NCBI RefSeq assembly: GCF_001942405.1
Contig: NZ_MKKA01000003.1
Span: forward strand, 1 to 64,000
Direction: 5' to 3'
Source of the DNA: Ornithinimicrobium sp. CNJ-824
GTDB taxonomy: Bacteria > Actinomycetota > Actinomycetes > Actinomycetales > Dermatophilaceae
DNA length: 64,000 nucleotides
Part shown: in pieces, positions 34,944 through 41,714 of the stretch
How positions within the stretch are numbered: position 1 is the stretch's first letter
Layout: each line of letters starts with the position of its first letter
Translations under genes and position numbers: made by a program
Notes under the pieces: generated by a model
Database searches by the model: none
Seen by the model: the letters and a program-made list of their open reading frames with translations, nothing else
What the model was told of the DNA's origin: nothing

Positions 34944-35837
34944 ATGACCGACCCGACCACCACGCCCGCCACCGTCCGGCAGGACCGGCTGGCCGCCGAC
35001 ACCGCGATGGGCCCGGTGACCCTCGAGGTCGCCGACCTGGCGGGGATGACCGCCTTCTACCGCGACGCCGTCACCCTGCAGGTCCTCGCCGAGGACGGCG
35101 ACGTCGTCACCATGGGCCGGGGGAGCACCCCGGTCGTCGCCCTGCGCCACCGCCCCCAGCTGCGTCACGCCGCCCCCGGGTCGGCGGGGTTGTTCCACAC
35201 GGCCATCCTCTTCTCGACGCAGGCGGCCCTGGCGGCCGCCGTCGCCTCGATGGCCAAGGCGCGCGCGCCCTACACCGGCAGCGCCGACCACCTGGTCAGC
35301 AAGGCGTTCTACTTCGACGACCCCGAGGGCAACGGCATCGAGCTCTACTGGGACCGGGACCGGACGCAGTGGAGCTGGGTGCACGGCCGCGTGGAGATGG
35401 ACAACCGCCTCCTCGACGCCGACGCCTTCCTCTGGGAGCACCTGACCCCCGAGGGCCTGGCGCGTCCGGACGCCGGCCCGGCGGTCGTGGGCCACGTCCA
35501 CCTGTCGGTCGGCGACGTGGGCACGGCCCGCGACTTCTACGTCGACACCCTCGGCTTCGACACCACCCTGGAGTGGGGCGGCGCCGCCCTGTTCGTCAGC
35601 GCCGGCGGCTACCACCACCACATGGCGATGAACGTCTGGAACAGCCGGGGCGCCGGCCGCCGCTTCCCCACGCTGGGGCTGGGGCAGGTGGACATCGAGC
35701 TGCCGACCCCCGACGACGTCGGGGCGCTGACCGAGCGGATGCGCCACCACGGCGTGCAGAGCGCCGACGACGGGCGCACGGTGACCTTCGAGGACCCGTG
35801 GGCCAACCGGCTCCACGTCCGGGTCGCCGGGGCCTGA
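34944..35837 (+). CDS. VOC-family dioxygenase-like protein (CatE-like)
   Basis: 297 aa with two vicinal-oxygen-chelate modules, about residues 20-135 and 165-295. Candidate metal ligands include the histidine of GHVHLSVGD, the histidine cluster GYHHHMAMN and the glutamate of VDIELP, the arrangement of extradiol dioxygenases such as Bacillus CatE. It may therefore cleave a catechol-like ring or act on another aromatic, but glyoxalase or resistance functions occur in the same fold. GAGGAG precedes the ATG. It is the first gene of a two-gene unit, with the flavoprotein starting 10 bases after its stop. Confidence 0.8.
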   Translation: MTDPTTTPATVRQDRLAADTAMGPVTLEVADLAGMTAFYRDAVTLQVLAEDGDVVTMGRGSTPVVALRHRPQLRHAAPGSAGLFHTAILFSTQAALAAAVASMAKARAPYTGSADHLVSKAFYFDDPEGNGIELYWDRDRTQWSWVHGRVEMDNRLLDADAFLWEHLTPEGLARPDAGPAVVGHVHLSVGDVGTARDFYVDTLGFDTTLEWGGAALFVSAGGYHHHMAMNVWNSRGAGRRFPTLGLGQVDIELPTPDDVGALTERMRHHGVQSADDGRTVTFEDPWANRLHVRVAGA

Positions 35838-35847
35838 ACGGCCGACC

Positions 35848-37437
35848 GTGCCCGACTACGGCCACGAGGTGCGGCTGGGGGTGTTCCCGACCCCGGCGGC
35901 GGCCGAGCCGCACCGCGCCGTGGAGCTGGGGATCCTGGCCGACACGGCAGGGATCGACCTGGTCACCGTCCAGGACCACCCCTACCAGGCGGCCCACCTG
36001 GACAGCTGGACCCTGCTGTCCTGGATCGCCGCCCGGACGACGCACGTCCGGCTCGGGCTCAACGTGGCCAACCTGCCGCTGCGGCCGCCCGTCGTGCTGG
36101 CCCGCTCGGTGGCCACCCTGGACCTGCTCTCCGGCGGCCGGGCCGACCTCGGGCTCGGCGCCGGTGCGTTCTGGGACGGGATCGTGGCCGCCGGGGGTCC
36201 CCGTCGACGCCCGGGGGAGGCCGTCGACGCGCTCGTCGAGGCGGTCGACGTGGTCCGCCAGGTATGGCGCGGGCAGGGATCGGTGCACGTGGACGGTGAG
36301 CACCACCGGGTCAAGGGGCTGCACGCCGGCCCGGCGCCCGCCGGGGACCCGGCCCTGTGGATCGGCGCCTACGGCCCGCGGATGCTGCGGGTGACCGGTC
36401 GGCTCGCCGACGGCTGGCTGCCGAGCCTGGGCTACCTGCCGCCGGAGAGGCTCGGCGCGGCCAACGCCAGGATCGACGAGGCGGCGGCCCGGGCCGGGAG
36501 GGCGCCGCAGGACGTCGTCCGGCTCTACAACGTCCACGGCCGCTTCGGCCGTGGCGGCGGACTGCTCCAGGGCGGTCCGTCGGAGTGGGCCGAGCAGCTG
36601 GCCGACCTCGTGCTCGGACACGGCATGTCCACCTTCGTGCTGGCCACCGACGACCCCGGGGCCGTCAGGACGCTCGGCCAGGAGGTCGGTCCGGCGCTGC
36701 GCGAGCTGGTGCAGGCCGAGCGGTCCGCGACCGCCGCGGGCGGCGCCGGCGACCCGGCACCGGGGGTCACCACGGTCCCGGCAGGGTCCGGCGCCCCGGC
36801 CGTCGACGGCACGGTCCCGCCGGGCATCACGCCCACCCCCGACGACGGCACCCGGCTCACCGGCGAGCTGGCCTGGGACGAGGACTCCCGTCCCAGCGCG
36901 CCCGCGCCCGAGGGGGAGCCGGCGGCATACTCCACCGAACGGCTGGCCCTGCCCCAGCACCTCATCGACATCCACGACCACCTGCGCGGCGAGCTGGCCT
37001 CCGTCCGGGACGTCGTCGACCAGGTCCGTCGCGGCCACCTGCAGGTGGGCCAGGCGCGATCGGTCGTCAACACGATGGCCATGCGGCAGAACAACTGGAC
37101 GCTGGGGGCGTTCTGCGAGTCGTACTGCCGGATCGTCACCGGGCACCACACCCTGGAGGACCGGTCGGTCTTCCCGCACCTGCGCCGCCTGGAGCCCGGC
37201 CTGGCCCCGGTGCTGGACCGGCTGGAGGAGGAGCACGAGGTGATCGCCGACGTGCTCGACCGGCTCGACCGCGCGCTGGTCGCCCTCGTCGACGAGGAGG
37301 GCTACGGGCAGGGGGCGCGGGACGCGCTCGACGAGCTGGGCCGCAGCGTCGACCTGCTCACCGACACCCTGCTGTCCCACCTCTCCTACGAGGAGCGCGA
37401 GCTGGTCGGCCCGCTGGCCCGGCACGGCTTCGGCTGA
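35848..37437 (+). CDS. LLM-class flavin monooxygenase fused to a hemerythrin domain
   Basis: 529 aa. Residues 1 to about 295 are a bacterial-luciferase-like TIM barrel (VRLGVFPTPAAAEPHRAVEL, TLDLLSGGRADLGLGAG, ALWIGAYGPRML). A disordered Pro/Gly/Thr linker to about 365 leads to a C-terminal hemerythrin domain. This shows the di-iron ligands as IDIHDHLRGEL, GHHTLEDRSVFPHL, EEEHEVI and HLSYEEREL. The first part should use FMN or F420; the second binds O2 or senses redox state. Joined in one chain they suggest oxygen delivery to, or oxygen gating of, a flavin reaction. The GTG start is inferred from spacing after the VOC gene. Confidence 0.88.
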   Translation: MPDYGHEVRLGVFPTPAAAEPHRAVELGILADTAGIDLVTVQDHPYQAAHLDSWTLLSWIAARTTHVRLGLNVANLPLRPPVVLARSVATLDLLSGGRADLGLGAGAFWDGIVAAGGPRRRPGEAVDALVEAVDVVRQVWRGQGSVHVDGEHHRVKGLHAGPAPAGDPALWIGAYGPRMLRVTGRLADGWLPSLGYLPPERLGAANARIDEAAARAGRAPQDVVRLYNVHGRFGRGGGLLQGGPSEWAEQLADLVLGHGMSTFVLATDDPGAVRTLGQEVGPALRELVQAERSATAAGGAGDPAPGVTTVPAGSGAPAVDGTVPPGITPTPDDGTRLTGELAWDEDSRPSAPAPEGEPAAYSTERLALPQHLIDIHDHLRGELASVRDVVDQVRRGHLQVGQARSVVNTMAMRQNNWTLGAFCESYCRIVTGHHTLEDRSVFPHLRRLEPGLAPVLDRLEEEHEVIADVLDRLDRALVALVDEEGYGQGARDALDELGRSVDLLTDTLLSHLSYEERELVGPLARHGFG

Positions 37438-37447
37438 GACCGGGGGC

Positions 37448-37747
37448 TCAGGGGGTGTGCCACTCCACGACGAGCCCCGCCTTCTGCCCGAAGCGCTCCA
37501 GGTGGGACCCGACGACGTGGGTCAGCCGCTCAGCGACCTCGGGGCTGCTGCCCTCGACCTCCAGCCGCAGCACGTCCGGGCGGGTGGTGTCCATCAGGCA
37601 GCGGGCCGATCCGTGCTCGCCGTCCATCACCACCTGGGGTCCGGACGGCGTCTCCTCCTGGGTGAGCTTGCGCCCCAGGTGGGAGGCCAGTTGCTTGGCC
37701 CAGCGGGCCGGGGTGTCGGTGCGCACGTCGGCGCGGACGGTGGTCAT
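37448..37747 (-). CDS. DUF2218 family protein
   Basis: 99 aa small soluble protein. Its pattern VRTDTPARWAKQLASHLGRKL, then GSARCLMDTTRPDVLRLEVE and HLERFGQKAGLVVEW, matches the DUF2218 family. Members are short alpha/beta proteins often encoded with siderophore uptake or utilisation genes, and this copy is the last gene of such an operon. The start overlaps the ABC ATPase stop as ATGA. A role in iron handling is inferred from context only. Confidence 0.85.
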   Translation of the reverse strand: MTTVRADVRTDTPARWAKQLASHLGRKLTQEETPSGPQVVMDGEHGSARCLMDTTRPDVLRLEVEGSSPEVAERLTHVVGSHLERFGQKAGLVVEWHTP

Positions 37748-38630
37748 CGGGAGAGGCTCCTGTCGGGGGAGGGGACGAGGTCGGGGTCGGTGGCTGGGGC
37801 GTCGACCGGCACGGAGGGCGGGTCCTCGACGGGGGCGCGTCGCCGTGGTGGGCCGCGACCGGCGCACCGGGTGTCCAGTAGACGCCCAGACGCATGCCGT
37901 GCAAATCCTGCACGACGATGTCCATGTCGAAGACCTCGCGCAGCACCTCGCGCCGGATGATCTGGGAGGGCGGCCCGGCCGCGACGACGGCGCCGTCCCG
38001 CATGGCCACGATGTGGTCGGAGTAGGCGGAGGCGAAGTTGATGTCGTGCAGCACCACCACCACCGTCTTGCCGAGCTCGTCGACCGCGCGGCGGAGCAGG
38101 GCCATCGTGTGCGCCGAGTGCTTCATGTCGAGGTTGTTCAGCGGCTCGTCCAGGAGCAGGTAGTCGGTGTCCTGCGCCAGCACCATGCCGAGGAAGGCAC
38201 GCTGGCGCTGCCCGCCGGAAAGCTGGTCGAGGTACCGGTCCCGGAAGGCCCCCAGGTCGACCCACTCCAGCGCCTGCTCGGCGATGCGGTGACACTCCGG
38301 CGTGAGCCGCCCCTTGCTGTAGGGGAAGCGCCCGAAACGCACCAGGTCGATCACGGTCAGCCGGGCGGTCACGTGGTTGTCCTGCCGCAGCACGGCCAGC
38401 TGCCGGGCCACCTGGTCGGCCGGCGCCCGGAGCACGTCGAGGTCGCCGACGACCACGTGGCCGCGGTCGGGGGTCAGCATGCGCGCGACGACCGACAGCA
38501 GGGTCGACTTCCCGGCGCCGTTGGACCCCACCAGCGAGGTGAGCGCGCCCCGGGGGATCTGCAGGTCGACGGCGTCCAGCACCGGGGTGCTGCCGTCGTA
38601 GGAGTGGTGGACGTCGGAGACGGTGATCAC
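37744..38630 (-). CDS. Iron-siderophore ABC transporter ATPase, FepC-like (one-base frameshift at 37831-37835)
   Basis: About 295 aa after restoring one base in the G5 run (C5 on the coding strand) at 37831-37835. Walker A GSNGAGKSTLL, signature LSGGQRQRAFLGM, Walker B YLLLDEPLNNLD and the switch histidine VVVLHDINFASAY are intact upstream of the break, so only the C-terminal tail is affected. The corrected frame ends at 37744 overlapping DUF2218. The GTG start at 38630 overlaps the permease stop. It energises uptake through the two permeases below. Confidence 0.9.
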
Positions 38631-39651
38631 AGGCGGGAGGTCCTCATGAGCAGGAGCAGGAAGTAGACGCCGCCGACGAGGTTGACGACGACCGAGAGCG
38701 TGGTGCGCAGGTCGAACAGGTGGGTGACGAGCAGCTGGCCGACCACGCAGCAGAGGACCCCGACCAGGCCGAGGCGGGGACCAGGACGGTGTGCCGGTGG
38801 CTGCGCACGACCTGGCGGGCCAGATTGGCCACGATGAGTCCGAGGAAGAGCATCGGCCCCACGAGCGCTGCCGAGGCGGCCACCAGCACGGTGACCGTCA
38901 CGAGCACCCGGCGCACGACGCGGTGGTAGTCCACGCCCAGGGCCACGGCGTTGTCCCGGCCCAGGTCGATCACGTCCACCGCGCGCAGCAGCGGCCACAT
39001 GGCGACCAGGCCGACGACGGTGGCGACCGCGGTCACGAGCAGCAGCCGGGTGTCCACGGTGGTGAAGCTGGCGAAGGTCAGCTGCTGCAGGGTGAGGAAG
39101 TCGTCGGGGTCGAGCACCCGGGAGGCCAGGGTGGTGAGCGAGCCGAAGAAAGTGCCCATGACGATGCCCACCAGCACCAGGACGAACAGGTTGCGGCTGC
39201 GCGCGCGGAACAGCCAGGAGAACAGGAGCAGGCCGAAGGCGGTCAGCACCGCCGTGTTGAGGGCGAAGCGCGGCAGGACGCCCAGCAGCAGCGCCCCCGA
39301 CCCGAAGGCCGTGACCAGCACCGTCTGCACGAGCACGTAGACCGAGTCGAAGCCCATCACCCCGGGGGTGAGGATCCGGTTGCCGGCGATCGTCTGGAAC
39401 ACGAGGCTGGAGGCCCCGACGGCCGCACCCACGACGACGAGGGCCCCGGCCTGACGGCCGCGCAGGTCGAGGGCGTAGGACCAGCTTCCGCGCACGTCCC
39501 AGGTCAGGTATGCCGCGAGCGCGGTCAGGGTGAGGAGCGCCAGGACGACCATCGTGCGCCGGACGTGCCGCTCCCGCGCCTGTTCCGGGCCGGCGCCGTC
39601 CAGCTGTGGCAGGGGGCCGCGGTCGGAGGCGCGTAGGACGGTGGTGCTCAT
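38627..39651 (-). CDS. Iron-siderophore ABC permease, FecCD family, second subunit (one-base frameshift near 38768)
   Basis: About 341 aa with some nine membrane helices once a C is restored in GCC(C)TGGTCGG near 38768. The coupling region GPMLFLGLIVANLARQVV is the FecCD signature next to the ATPase contact. After the break the frame continues VGVLCCVVGQLLVTHLFDL and ends at 38627. The N-terminus is a basic cytoplasmic stretch. It starts by ATGA overlap with the first permease. Confidence 0.87.
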
Positions 39652-40692
39652 CGCGCTGCTCCTGCCGTCCGGGCCGCCGGGCGGGTGGAGCGCAGGATCA
39701 GCCAGATGAACACGCCGCGCCCACGACGCCGGCCACGACGCTGACCGGGATCTCGTAGGGGTGGATCAGGGTGCGACCGACGATGTCGCAGGCGAGGACG
39801 AAACCGGCTCCGGCCAGGGCCGTGACGGGCAGGATGCGGCGCACGTTGTCGCCGAGGAAGAGCGAGACGATGTTGGGGACGATCAGCCCCAGGAAGGGGA
39901 TGGCGCCGACGACGACCACGACCGTGGCTGCCATCACCGACACGACCACCAGCCCCGTATAGAGGATGGTGGTGTAGCGCACCCCCAGGTTGACGGCGAA
40001 CTCGCGGCCCATCCCGACGACGGTGAACCGGTCGGCGAACAGGTAGCCGACCACCCCCACCAGCAGCACGAGGTAGAGCGGCTCGTACATCCCGGCCATC
40101 ATGCTGGAGAAGGACCCGCTGCTCCAGATCTCCAGCAGCTGGAGCAGGTCGCGCTGGTAGGCGATGAACGTGGTCACCGAGCCGATGACGCCGCCGTACA
40201 TGAGGCCGACCAGGGCGACGACGACCGGGTCCCGGAAGCGGATCCGGTGCAGCAGGTGCAGGAAGACCATCGTGCCGAGGATCCCGGTGCCGATGGCGAA
40301 GGTCATCTTCCCGACCAGGCCGACCTGGGGCAGGAAGAGGGTGGCCAGCAGCACCCCGAGCACGGCCGCCTCGGTCGTCCCGGAGGTGGACGGGGAGACG
40401 AAGGAGTTCTGGGTGATCCGCTGCATGATCATGCCGGCGACGGCGAGCGCAGCTCCGGCCAGCAGCACGGCCACGGTGCGCGGCAGCCGCGCGACCGAGA
40501 GGATCCGCCACTGGTCCTCGGTGGGGGAGAGCAGGTCGCCCAGCGGGATCGGGACGGCACCGATCCCCAGGGACAGGTAGGCACCCGCCAGGACGGCCAG
40601 CAGCGAGGCGGCGTAGACGAGCCGCCACCGCGTCGCCCCGCCGGCGGTCGTGGTGACCGCGGCGGGGGGTTGGACGTCGTTGTGGGGGGCAC
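39648..40692 (-). CDS. Iron-siderophore ABC permease, FecCD family, first subunit (one-base frameshifts near 40666 and 39715)
   Basis: About 348 aa if one base is restored in the G6 run at 40664-40669 and one near 39715. Core motifs are GAALAVAGMIMQRITQNSF near the N-terminus and VGAIPFLGLIVPNIVSLFLG before the ATPase-coupling loop. The GTG at 40692, 2 bases after the binding-protein stop, is the only plausible start; without the correction the frame has no start codon there. The second correction gives the C-terminal GVFIWLILRSTRPA that overlaps the next gene. Confidence 0.85.
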
Positions 40693-40694
40693 TG

Positions 40695-41714
40695 TCAGCC
40701 GGCGTCCGGCAGGCTCGCGCGGACGTCGTCGACCATCTGCTGGATCGAGCTGGGTGCGCTCGTGGCCAGGTACCAGGCGAAGCCGTCGACCTCGACCACA
40801 CGGCCGTCCTGGACGGCCGTGGTCGTGTTGGCCAGGCCGTTGTTCAGCACGTCCAGCGCCGGGGTCTGCTCGTCGTCCCCGATCGCCTTGGCCCGGTCGA
40901 GCACAAAGAGGACGTCGGGGTCGTACTGGACGAAGAACTCCTGGCTGATCTCGTCGCCGTGGCCGCCGCCCTCCTGGAGGGGCGCTTCGGTCGGCGCGTA
41001 GCCGAAGTCCTCGTAGACCAGACCGAAGCGTGAGCCCGGACCGTAGGCCGAGACCGTGCCGTCGGAGACCTGGACGACCATCGCCGTGTCACCGCTGGCG
41101 GAGATCTGCGACTCCAGCTCCGCGATCTGGGACTCCAGGTCGTCCATGAGCGTGGCCGCCTCGTCCTCGACCGCGAAGATCTGGCCCAGCTGCTCGACCC
41201 GCTCCCGGGTCTGCGGAATCACCTCGGCCGGTTCTTCGGCGCGGACCGACAGGTCGATGACGGTGGTGAACTTCTCGAACTCGGCGACGACCTCCGGGGT
41301 GCCGCTGCGGCTGCCGACGATGACGACGTCGGGTGCCATGCCCTCGATGGCCTCGTAGTCCGGCTCGAACACGTCGCCGACCTTGGGGACGTCCTCGCCC
41401 TCGTAGATCGCCAGGTCCTCGGGCAGGCCGCTGACCGGAGCGGGGACGGCGTCGGCCTGCACGCCCAGGTCGGTCAGGGCGCGGATGACGCTCCAGTCGG
41501 TGACCACGACCATCTCGGGGTCGACGGGCACCTCGACCGTGCGGTCCTGCGCGTCGGTGATGCTCACGGTGGCGGCCTGCGGGTCGCTCGTCGTGGAGAC
41601 GTCGGCCGCCTCAGCCGCGGTGCCGGCGGTCTGGGGCGTGTCGGTGCTGCCGCAGGCGGTCAGCGTCAGGGCGAGGGCGGCGGCGCCTACGGCGTGCCGA
41701 GAGTGTCGGAACAT
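40695..41714 (-). CDS. Siderophore-binding lipoprotein
   Basis: 339 aa substrate-binding protein of the FepB/FatB type. The signal peptide ends in a lipobox, LTLTACGS, so the mature protein would be anchored by a lipid on the cysteine near residue 21. A Thr/Ala-rich linker and then two lobes joined by a long helix follow (VDPEMVVVTDWSVIRALTDLG; EGMAPDVVIVGSRSG; EFFVQYDPDVLFVLDR). It captures a ferric siderophore and hands it to the two permeases encoded next. Its promoter carries an iron box, so expression should rise under iron limitation. Confidence 0.92.
   Translation of the reverse strand: MFRHSRHAVGAAALALTLTACGSTDTPQTAGTAAEAADVSTTSDPQAATVSITDAQDRTVEVPVDPEMVVVTDWSVIRALTDLGVQADAVPAPVSGLPEDLAIYEGEDVPKVGDVFEPDYEAIEGMAPDVVIVGSRSGTPEVVAEFEKFTTVIDLSVRAEEPAEVIPQTRERVEQLGQIFAVEDEAATLMDDLESQIAELESQISASGDTAMVVQVSDGTVSAYGPGSRFGLVYEDFGYAPTEAPLQEGGGHGDEISQEFFVQYDPDVLFVLDRAKAIGDDEQTPALDVLNNGLANTTTAVQDGRVVEVDGFAWYLATSAPSSIQQMVDDVRASLPDAG

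Follow-up and report, generated by a model that had tools for sequence, protein, structure and literature searches.

A single intact gene in the 64,000-nucleotide stretch of Ornithinimicrobium sp. CNJ-824 DNA analyzed here (the window) encodes a luciferase-like barrel (LLM, PF00296) fused to a hemerythrin-type domain (Hr, PF01814). The product, CNJ-824 LLM-Hr or the window protein, belongs to an apparently unstudied actinobacterial LLM subfamily that swaps its C-terminal redox partner: a di-iron domain, an FAD oxidase or none. At a probability of roughly 0.4, and by analogy, we favor a role for the iron module as a di-iron accessory tethered near the LLM, where it would handle peroxide, O2 or NO. 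Points for this reading are the intact two-domain frame, its occurrence in many genera, low dN/dS, RIC-like predicted ligands, separable modules and a variable linker.

Architecture of the fusion protein

The gene and its main segments are as follows.

35848..37437 (+) LLM-Hr fusion gene, 529 aa, GTG start, without internal stop
35848..36726 (+) LLM TIM-barrel domain, residues 1-293 (PF00296, Foldseek)
36727..36828 (+) variable linker, residues 294-327 (low pLDDT, raised dN)
36829..36894 (+) N-terminal tail of the iron module, TPTPDDGxR...WDE..RP, residues 328-349
36934..37425 (+) hemerythrin (HHE) domain, residues 363-526, five predicted helices (PF01814, models)

Pfam identifies Bac_luciferase (PF00296) at residues 16-223 of the window protein (E = 1.1e-49, 169.9 bits versus a gathering score of 27.9) and Hemerythrin (PF01814) at residues 372-520 (E = 1.1e-13, 52.2 versus 25.3 bits). 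With an intact reading frame and both domains above gathering score, the first-pass annotation of one 529-residue chain joining an LLM barrel to a hemerythrin is confirmed. The fusion is real and an assembly join is excluded, because it lies in one frame in 17 of the 24 genus genomes (G000-G023, with the window's own counted), and several of these are one-contig assemblies. Over all 38 genomes, own included, a one-frame LLM-Hr is found in 18 (in 13 one match covers it, and in 5 the match falls into two parts of the same open frame), which agrees with the earlier view that the halves form one gene rather than two.

The same annotation knew of no characterized enzyme of this design, and we also found no paper on an LLM-Hr fusion among those listed by our full-text searches on hemerythrin together with LLM or luciferase, though InterPro may already list the architecture. 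In papers on Frankia (PMC3188489) and on a phenanthrene consortium (PMC5591006), hemerythrin and LLM appear as distinct genes or proteins. In an excerpt on Streptomyces kebangsaanensis (PMC5712208), a hemerythrin HHE protein and an F420-type LLM are likewise separate genes (3283 and 3288) in a phenazine biosynthesis region. The word luciferase does not occur in the main text of PMC4919030, which covers 56 architectures of long O2-binding hemerythrins.

The full-length model has a mean pLDDT of 80, with values below 50 at residues 45-50 (within the conserved QDHPY loop), 300-325, 411-426 and 484-486. From the end of the LLM to the first Hr helix, 70 distinct fused ORFs span 39-119 aa. The disordered linker originally proposed is retained for approximately residues 294-327, which are variable and poorly ordered, but not for residues 328-349, which form the N-terminal tail of the iron module. 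Because L147, L148 and L150 keep TPTPDDGxR...WDE..RP in their stand-alone iron domains, the tail is assigned to the iron module in these loci. Herbidospora and other Streptosporangiaceae retain just its D(D/E)..RP end. By a strict, narrow pattern, 37 of the 70 fused ORFs have the whole tail, 14 the end alone and 19 neither. Residues R348-P349 are invariant in alignment A1 (28 rows: the window protein plus 27 of 29 GTDB contig-scan loci, leaving out the frameshifted L058 and the LLM-FAD protein L077).

Four pairwise comparisons give dN/dS values of 0.23-0.31 for the LLM, 0.18-0.27 for the iron module and 0.24-0.80 for the linker, with the module border set at residue 331, inside the tail motif; linker dN is raised. 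These values bear on whether the iron domain might ride along passively and do little. The LLM of one genome (G776) and other unfused rows lack it, but the iron-module dN/dS, the invariant predicted ligands and the presence of the domain alone where the LLM is missing make such a passenger very improbable.

The predicted iron site

Conservation is given for an alignment of 78 iron domains (69 fused, 9 unfused; L055 is distant).

36973..36975 (+) H376, predicted iron ligand (78/78 rows)
37114..37128 (+) CxxYC motif, C423-Y426-C427 (78/78 rows)
37144..37158 (+) H433xxxE437, predicted iron ligands (78/78 rows)
37231..37248 (+) E462-H463, with H463 the predicted ligand, and A467 (H463 78/78, E462 75/78)
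37378..37395 (+) H511xxxE515-E516, predicted iron ligands (H511 77/78, E515 76/78, E516 77/78)

H434 is also present in all 78 rows, as is the longer pattern Cys-x2-Tyr-Cys-x5-His-His-x2-Glu. As judged from sequence, the predicted site is the HHE/RIC-like set of four His and two Glu, not the oxygen-carrier set. All expected ligands had been reported at the outset; this stands for the HHE set and fails for the oxygen-carrier set, in which the fifth His is replaced by A467 and the Asp position by Glu. The canonical O2-binding motif is H-HxxxE-HxxxH-HxxxxD in a passage of PMC9388753, and the window protein departs from it at A467 and E516. The ligand order of YtfE/RIC in the relevant part of PMC9268430 is H84, H129xxxE133, E159-H160 and H204xxxE208; the window protein matches it as H-HxxxE-H-HxxxE, including the Glu before the third His. 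The equivalent of YtfE E125 is I429, and Val, Ile, Thr, Leu or Phe occupies this position in 74 of the 78 rows.

Position 467, the fifth His of oxygen carriers, is Ala in 38 rows (the window protein among them), His in 36, Ser in 3 and Gly in 1, and it changes seven times on the tree. All eight distant stand-alone homologs (L098-L105) have Ala or Ser there, so His is probably a derived gain. The C..YC.....HH..E pattern is found in these eight as well; the pattern used to pick their ORFs included C...C, and it dropped none of them (0/8). The subfamily offers a natural Ala/His switch at the ligand that separates oxygen-carrier from RIC-like sites.

The model of the iron domain is helical (pLDDT 81.7, below 50 at residues 417-424). 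With this partly low-pLDDT model, Foldseek found nothing at or below 0.001, and the best 50 of 451 rows are designed bundles and unrelated helical proteins, with no hemerythrin. Up to E = 1, a profile search of the PDB likewise turned up no hemerythrin chain.

Several known di-iron proteins resemble the module in part. The RIC/YtfE repair proteins share the ligand order H-HxxxE-EH-HxxxE, whereas the window protein lacks the E125 equivalent and, by Pfam, the ScdA N-terminal domain, and adds a CxxYC insert helix and the LLM fusion. According to PMC9268430, RIC proteins shield iron centers and are reactive towards NO. The oxygen-binding bacterial hemerythrins and sensors (DcrH and others) share the Pfam Hemerythrin domain and the tethering; the window protein differs from them in having Ala for the fifth His, Glu for Asp, and an oxidoreductase instead of a signaling domain as its partner. 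An excerpt of PMC8913304 describes a mycobacterial hemerythrin-like protein with four His, two Glu and a Tyr ligand that has weak catalase and NO peroxidase activity. This Mycobacterium kansasii protein resembles the window protein in the predicted four His plus two Glu and in a fifth helix; the likeness covers these features, and the Tyr ligand belongs to the M. kansasii protein.

The ligand pattern bears directly on oxygen delivery or storage, in which the hemerythrin would bind O2 and feed an LLM monooxygenase. The domain is of the hemerythrin type, and the single-domain hemerythrin of Methylococcus supplies O2 to methane monooxygenase (a passage of PMC4919030). Since 36 of the 78 homologs carry the fifth His, some may bind O2. 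Against this stand A467 and the Glu for Asp in the window protein, which break the motif of PMC9388753, the Ala or Ser at the fifth-His position in all eight distant stand-alone homologs, and the iron module in three genomes without an LLM orthologue. Same-family LLMs also persist without Hr (G776) or with an FAD oxidase. Delivery, one of the roles first proposed, is weakened accordingly and appears distinctly improbable.

A sensing or iron-handling role is somewhat unlikely. Here the iron domain would report redox, O2 or iron state and control LLM stability or activity, or would donate iron in a RIC-like manner. The best-described hemerythrin chimeras are sensors (PMC9388753), and in a section of PMC4919030 the commonest named hemerythrin architectures pair with MCP or GGDEF domains. 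The invariant Cys pair C423/C427 and the RIC-like ligands also speak for such a role. The chain, however, has no signaling domain by Pfam, I429 replaces the E125 of YtfE, and stand-alone Hr copies persist.

The LLM barrel and its cofactor

The barrel model matches solved LLM enzymes of both F420- and FMN-dependent types, with Foldseek E-values of 4.3e-15 (2i7g), 1.9e-14 (FGD), 5e-14 (Mer) and 1.2e-13 (SfnG). By sequence, FGD1 is matched in the PDB at 2.9e-19. For the 25 NCBIfam families listed (of 31), the LLM stays below every curated cut-off, and its best score is with TIGR03619 (130.5 versus 166.9 bits). In the FGD alignment, the GTGE of FGD corresponds to GAGA in the window protein; we take the Glu of GTGE to be the catalytic acid of FGD. 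Compared with LLM class F420/FMN oxidoreductases (PF00296; FGD, Mer, SfnG, RutA), the window protein shares the fold and core motifs and differs in its scores below the NCBIfam cut-offs listed, GAGA for GTGE and the C-terminal iron module.

QDHPY (residues 42-46) is among the barrel residues kept in the Hr-fused, FAD-fused and lone LLM groups, and the Hr and FAD groups differ at three barrel positions at the thresholds used. Because the conserved residues are nearly alike across partner groups, the partner probably makes no difference to barrel chemistry.

None of the 24 genus genomes, of which the window's own is 92.5% complete, has a CofG/CofH/FbiC FO synthase scoring above cut-off; weak matches are seen for CofH in four (best 2.8e-6) and CofG in one (8.8e-4). 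Among all 38 genomes, CofG exceeds the cut-off in two (G030 and G037), whose CofH matches (1e-71 and 1e-88) are below cut-off. As a control, fused FbiC is above cut-off in 6 of 11 additional genomes from the LLM-Hr family (Dactylosporangium twice, Planotetraspora, Herbidospora twice and Nocardioides), which indicates that the CofG search is sensitive; it is absent above cut-off from the Terracoccus, Humibacillus, Intrasporangium, Terrabacter and Nakamurella genomes searched. CofD is above cut-off in 27 of the 38 genomes, 20 of them in the genus (20/24). In three further genus genomes, G000, G003 and G008, one of them the window's own, CofD is broken into at least two pieces, and G004 has a trace alone. 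The CofD (FbiA) of G000 lies at C55:116927-117929.

Since FO synthesis is detectable in some hosts of the fusion family and not in others, the LLM cofactor may be FMN, or F420 made from imported FO. F420 dependence by family name was not accepted, as the NCBIfam cut-offs are unmet and FO synthase is below cut-off in the genus. CofD without FO synthase in the genus possibly reflects FO salvage or another FO route; the word salvage is absent from the main text of the F420 review PMC8498797. The presence of CofD without a detectable FO synthase bears on the annotation of "F420-dependent" LLM enzymes in the order of the window.

Exchange of partners and probable loss of either half

The LLM tree comprises 105 rows: 70 fused to Hr, 21 fused to an FAD_binding_4/BBE oxidase and 14 alone. 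These rows were chosen from fetched loci and are not a census; L058 was labeled by hand, and L076 (a short LLM piece) and repeated sequences were left out of the trees. Pfam names the FAD-oxidase domains in 3 rows out of 21; in the remainder they were recognized by similarity to one of those. BBE-like FAD oxidases often make H2O2, and having one as the alternative C-terminal partner is a further point for the accessory reading. A BBE-like oxidase is fused to a related LLM in L046, L047, L052, L053, L077, L132, L133, L154-L163, L165 and L166, and some LLM-FAD loci also have an unfused LLM alongside. In L048 and L049 (822 and 746 aa), the same FAD oxidase is joined to a divergent LLM (32-35% identity) near a closer unfused LLM. 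A single origin of the FAD fusion is compatible with the LLM tree (p = 0.14). A single origin of the LLM-Hr fusion was rejected on this tree, in which long branches are present (AU p = 1e-5).

Close relatives also carry one half by itself. Within Herbidospora, L083 is an iron domain without LLM, to be compared with the fused L074, and both flanks are conserved. Two further Hr-only loci were recognized there, L082 by downstream comparison with the fused L072 and L084 by gene listing. One genus (g267) has SPL-Hr (L148, L150) versus SPL-LLM-Hr (L145), with the same SPL gene directly upstream; another (g256) has TPR-Hr (L147) versus TPR-LLM-Hr (L152), again with the same TPR gene directly upstream. 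The apparently Hr-only L149 and L078 lie at contig ends and were excluded from the count. Scoring of every candidate in G643, G440 and G455 revealed no LLM orthologue with an E-value of 1e-25 or lower. All six Herbidospora genomes have another LLM elsewhere, which may back up the loss of the fused one. Conversely, G776 has an LLM without Hr, whereas G732 of the same genus has the fusion; the upstream genes are the same and the spacings differ.

Because Hr is found alone in three lineages with fused kin and the LLM alone in one genome, the two modules are, on these comparisons, separable. Stand-alone Hr nests among fused Hr, so the Hr-only cases are best read as losses rather than gains. Relatives with the iron domain alone or the LLM alone at matching places are natural controls. 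Together with the Ala/His switch, they allow a direct test of what tethered hemerythrin domains do.

Flavodiiron proteins carry a flavin-type domain and a di-iron domain in one chain, and the window protein likewise pairs a flavin-type domain with a predicted di-iron domain. The folds are unrelated, and the window protein contains no Lactamase_B or flavodoxin domain by Pfam. An enzyme of this kind, in which reduced FMN or F420H2 in the LLM would pass electrons to the di-iron site to reduce O2, NO or H2O2, is unlikely here. Both modules are in one chain, the ligand set is RIC-like, and the LLM and Hr trees correlate over 69 fused rows (r = 0.82 versus a permutation maximum of 0.19, species descent uncorrected). 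On the other hand, each half is found without the other, linker length ranges from 39 to 119 aa, the conserved barrel residues are nearly the same with an FAD-oxidase partner, and no conserved electron-donor gene adjoins the fusion among the clusters annotated. A fuller scheme is decidedly unlikely: a non-homologous flavodiiron protein with a deazaflavin/FMN barrel coupled to the HHE di-iron site, a Cys-pair relay, and the Ala/His switch tuning peroxide/NO reduction versus O2 binding. If flavodiiron-like coupling were true, the fusion would be a new chassis for pairing flavin with di-iron.

For the tethered di-iron accessory that we favor, the LLM barrel would perform substrate chemistry with FMN or F420, and the iron module would bind and remove, or turn over, peroxide, O2 or NO nearby. 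By analogy, this could protect the LLM and its neighbors. Because either half is absent in close relatives, we infer that the modules can work apart, in which case the tether would mainly raise local concentration. Among delivery, sensing and protection, the roles initially put forward, protection fits best.

Distribution

Among named species, Ornithinimicrobium pekingense (78-80% identity) and O. cerasi have the proteins closest to the window protein. Scanning GTDB contigs yielded 29 loci, not all fused, with titles from Ornithinimicrobium, Humibacillus, Terrabacter, Terracoccus, Intrasporangium, Dactylosporangium, Planotetraspora, Microbispora, Herbidospora, Nakamurella, Nocardioides, Kineosphaera, Agrococcus and Dermatophilaceae. 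One-frame LLM-Hr orthologs occur outside the genus in Terrabacter, Dactylosporangium, Planotetraspora, Herbidospora, Nakamurella and others.

In a sample of 396 genomes drawn evenly over the phylum, the iron domain reaches E = 1e-15 or better in 13, counting the window's own. An LLM shares the locus in five of them; the other eight hold distant copies, with no LLM match in flanks of about 1.5 kb (shorter in L103 and L104). Within the order, matches of E = 1e-40 or better come from 117 of 396 genomes: 28 with both halves, 5 with iron only and 84 with LLM only, as read off a listing of three scored candidates per genome, so that paralogs may be missed. Twenty-one of the 84 LLM-only genomes were fetched, and these contain 16 FAD fusions and 5 unfused LLMs.

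Gene neighborhood

The gene immediately upstream of the fusion is the following.

34944..35837 (+) two-domain VOC (glyoxalase/extradiol-dioxygenase-like) gene, 10 bp upstream (PF00903, E = 8e-20)

It is possibly in the same operon as LLM-Hr. The VOC gene found no match in the PDB at 1e-4; presumably it is CatE-like. A two-domain VOC gene lies directly upstream in all six members of the window's clade, and a VOC gene is also near five further genus loci (L038, L039, L041, L042 and L047), with either partner. An upstream VOC gene is limited to Ornithinimicrobium clades, and the neighboring TPR, SPL, HxlR, AraC, MFS and DJ-1 genes are each confined to one or a few lineages. A conserved operon as a clue to the substrate was rejected, as neighbors differ between genera.

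Divergent regulators stand beside some LLM-FAD genes, namely MarR by Pfam (L156 and L158) and HxlR-like proteins by BLAST (L157, L160 and L161), which suggests inducible detoxification. A small gene that is TPR-like by appearance, not by Pfam, lies near the start of LLM-Hr in L109, L110, L111, L118, L121, L131, L146 and L152, and near Hr alone in L147; these loci span two genera of the window's family. In one genus, a spore photoproduct lyase-like (SPL) gene (PF20903) is directly upstream of LLM-Hr (L145) or of lone Hr (L148 and L150), and SPL is present in 4 of the 38 genomes. The pairing of SPL with a lone iron domain in L148 and L150 was considered as Fe-S protection and rejected, as the relative L145 has SPL followed by a full LLM-Hr.

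Downstream, positions 37530-41714 (-) of the window encode an iron-siderophore-type ABC importer by Pfam (ATPase, two FecCD permeases and a binding protein), convergent with LLM-Hr. Related permease genes are also found near the fusion gene in L032 and L043.
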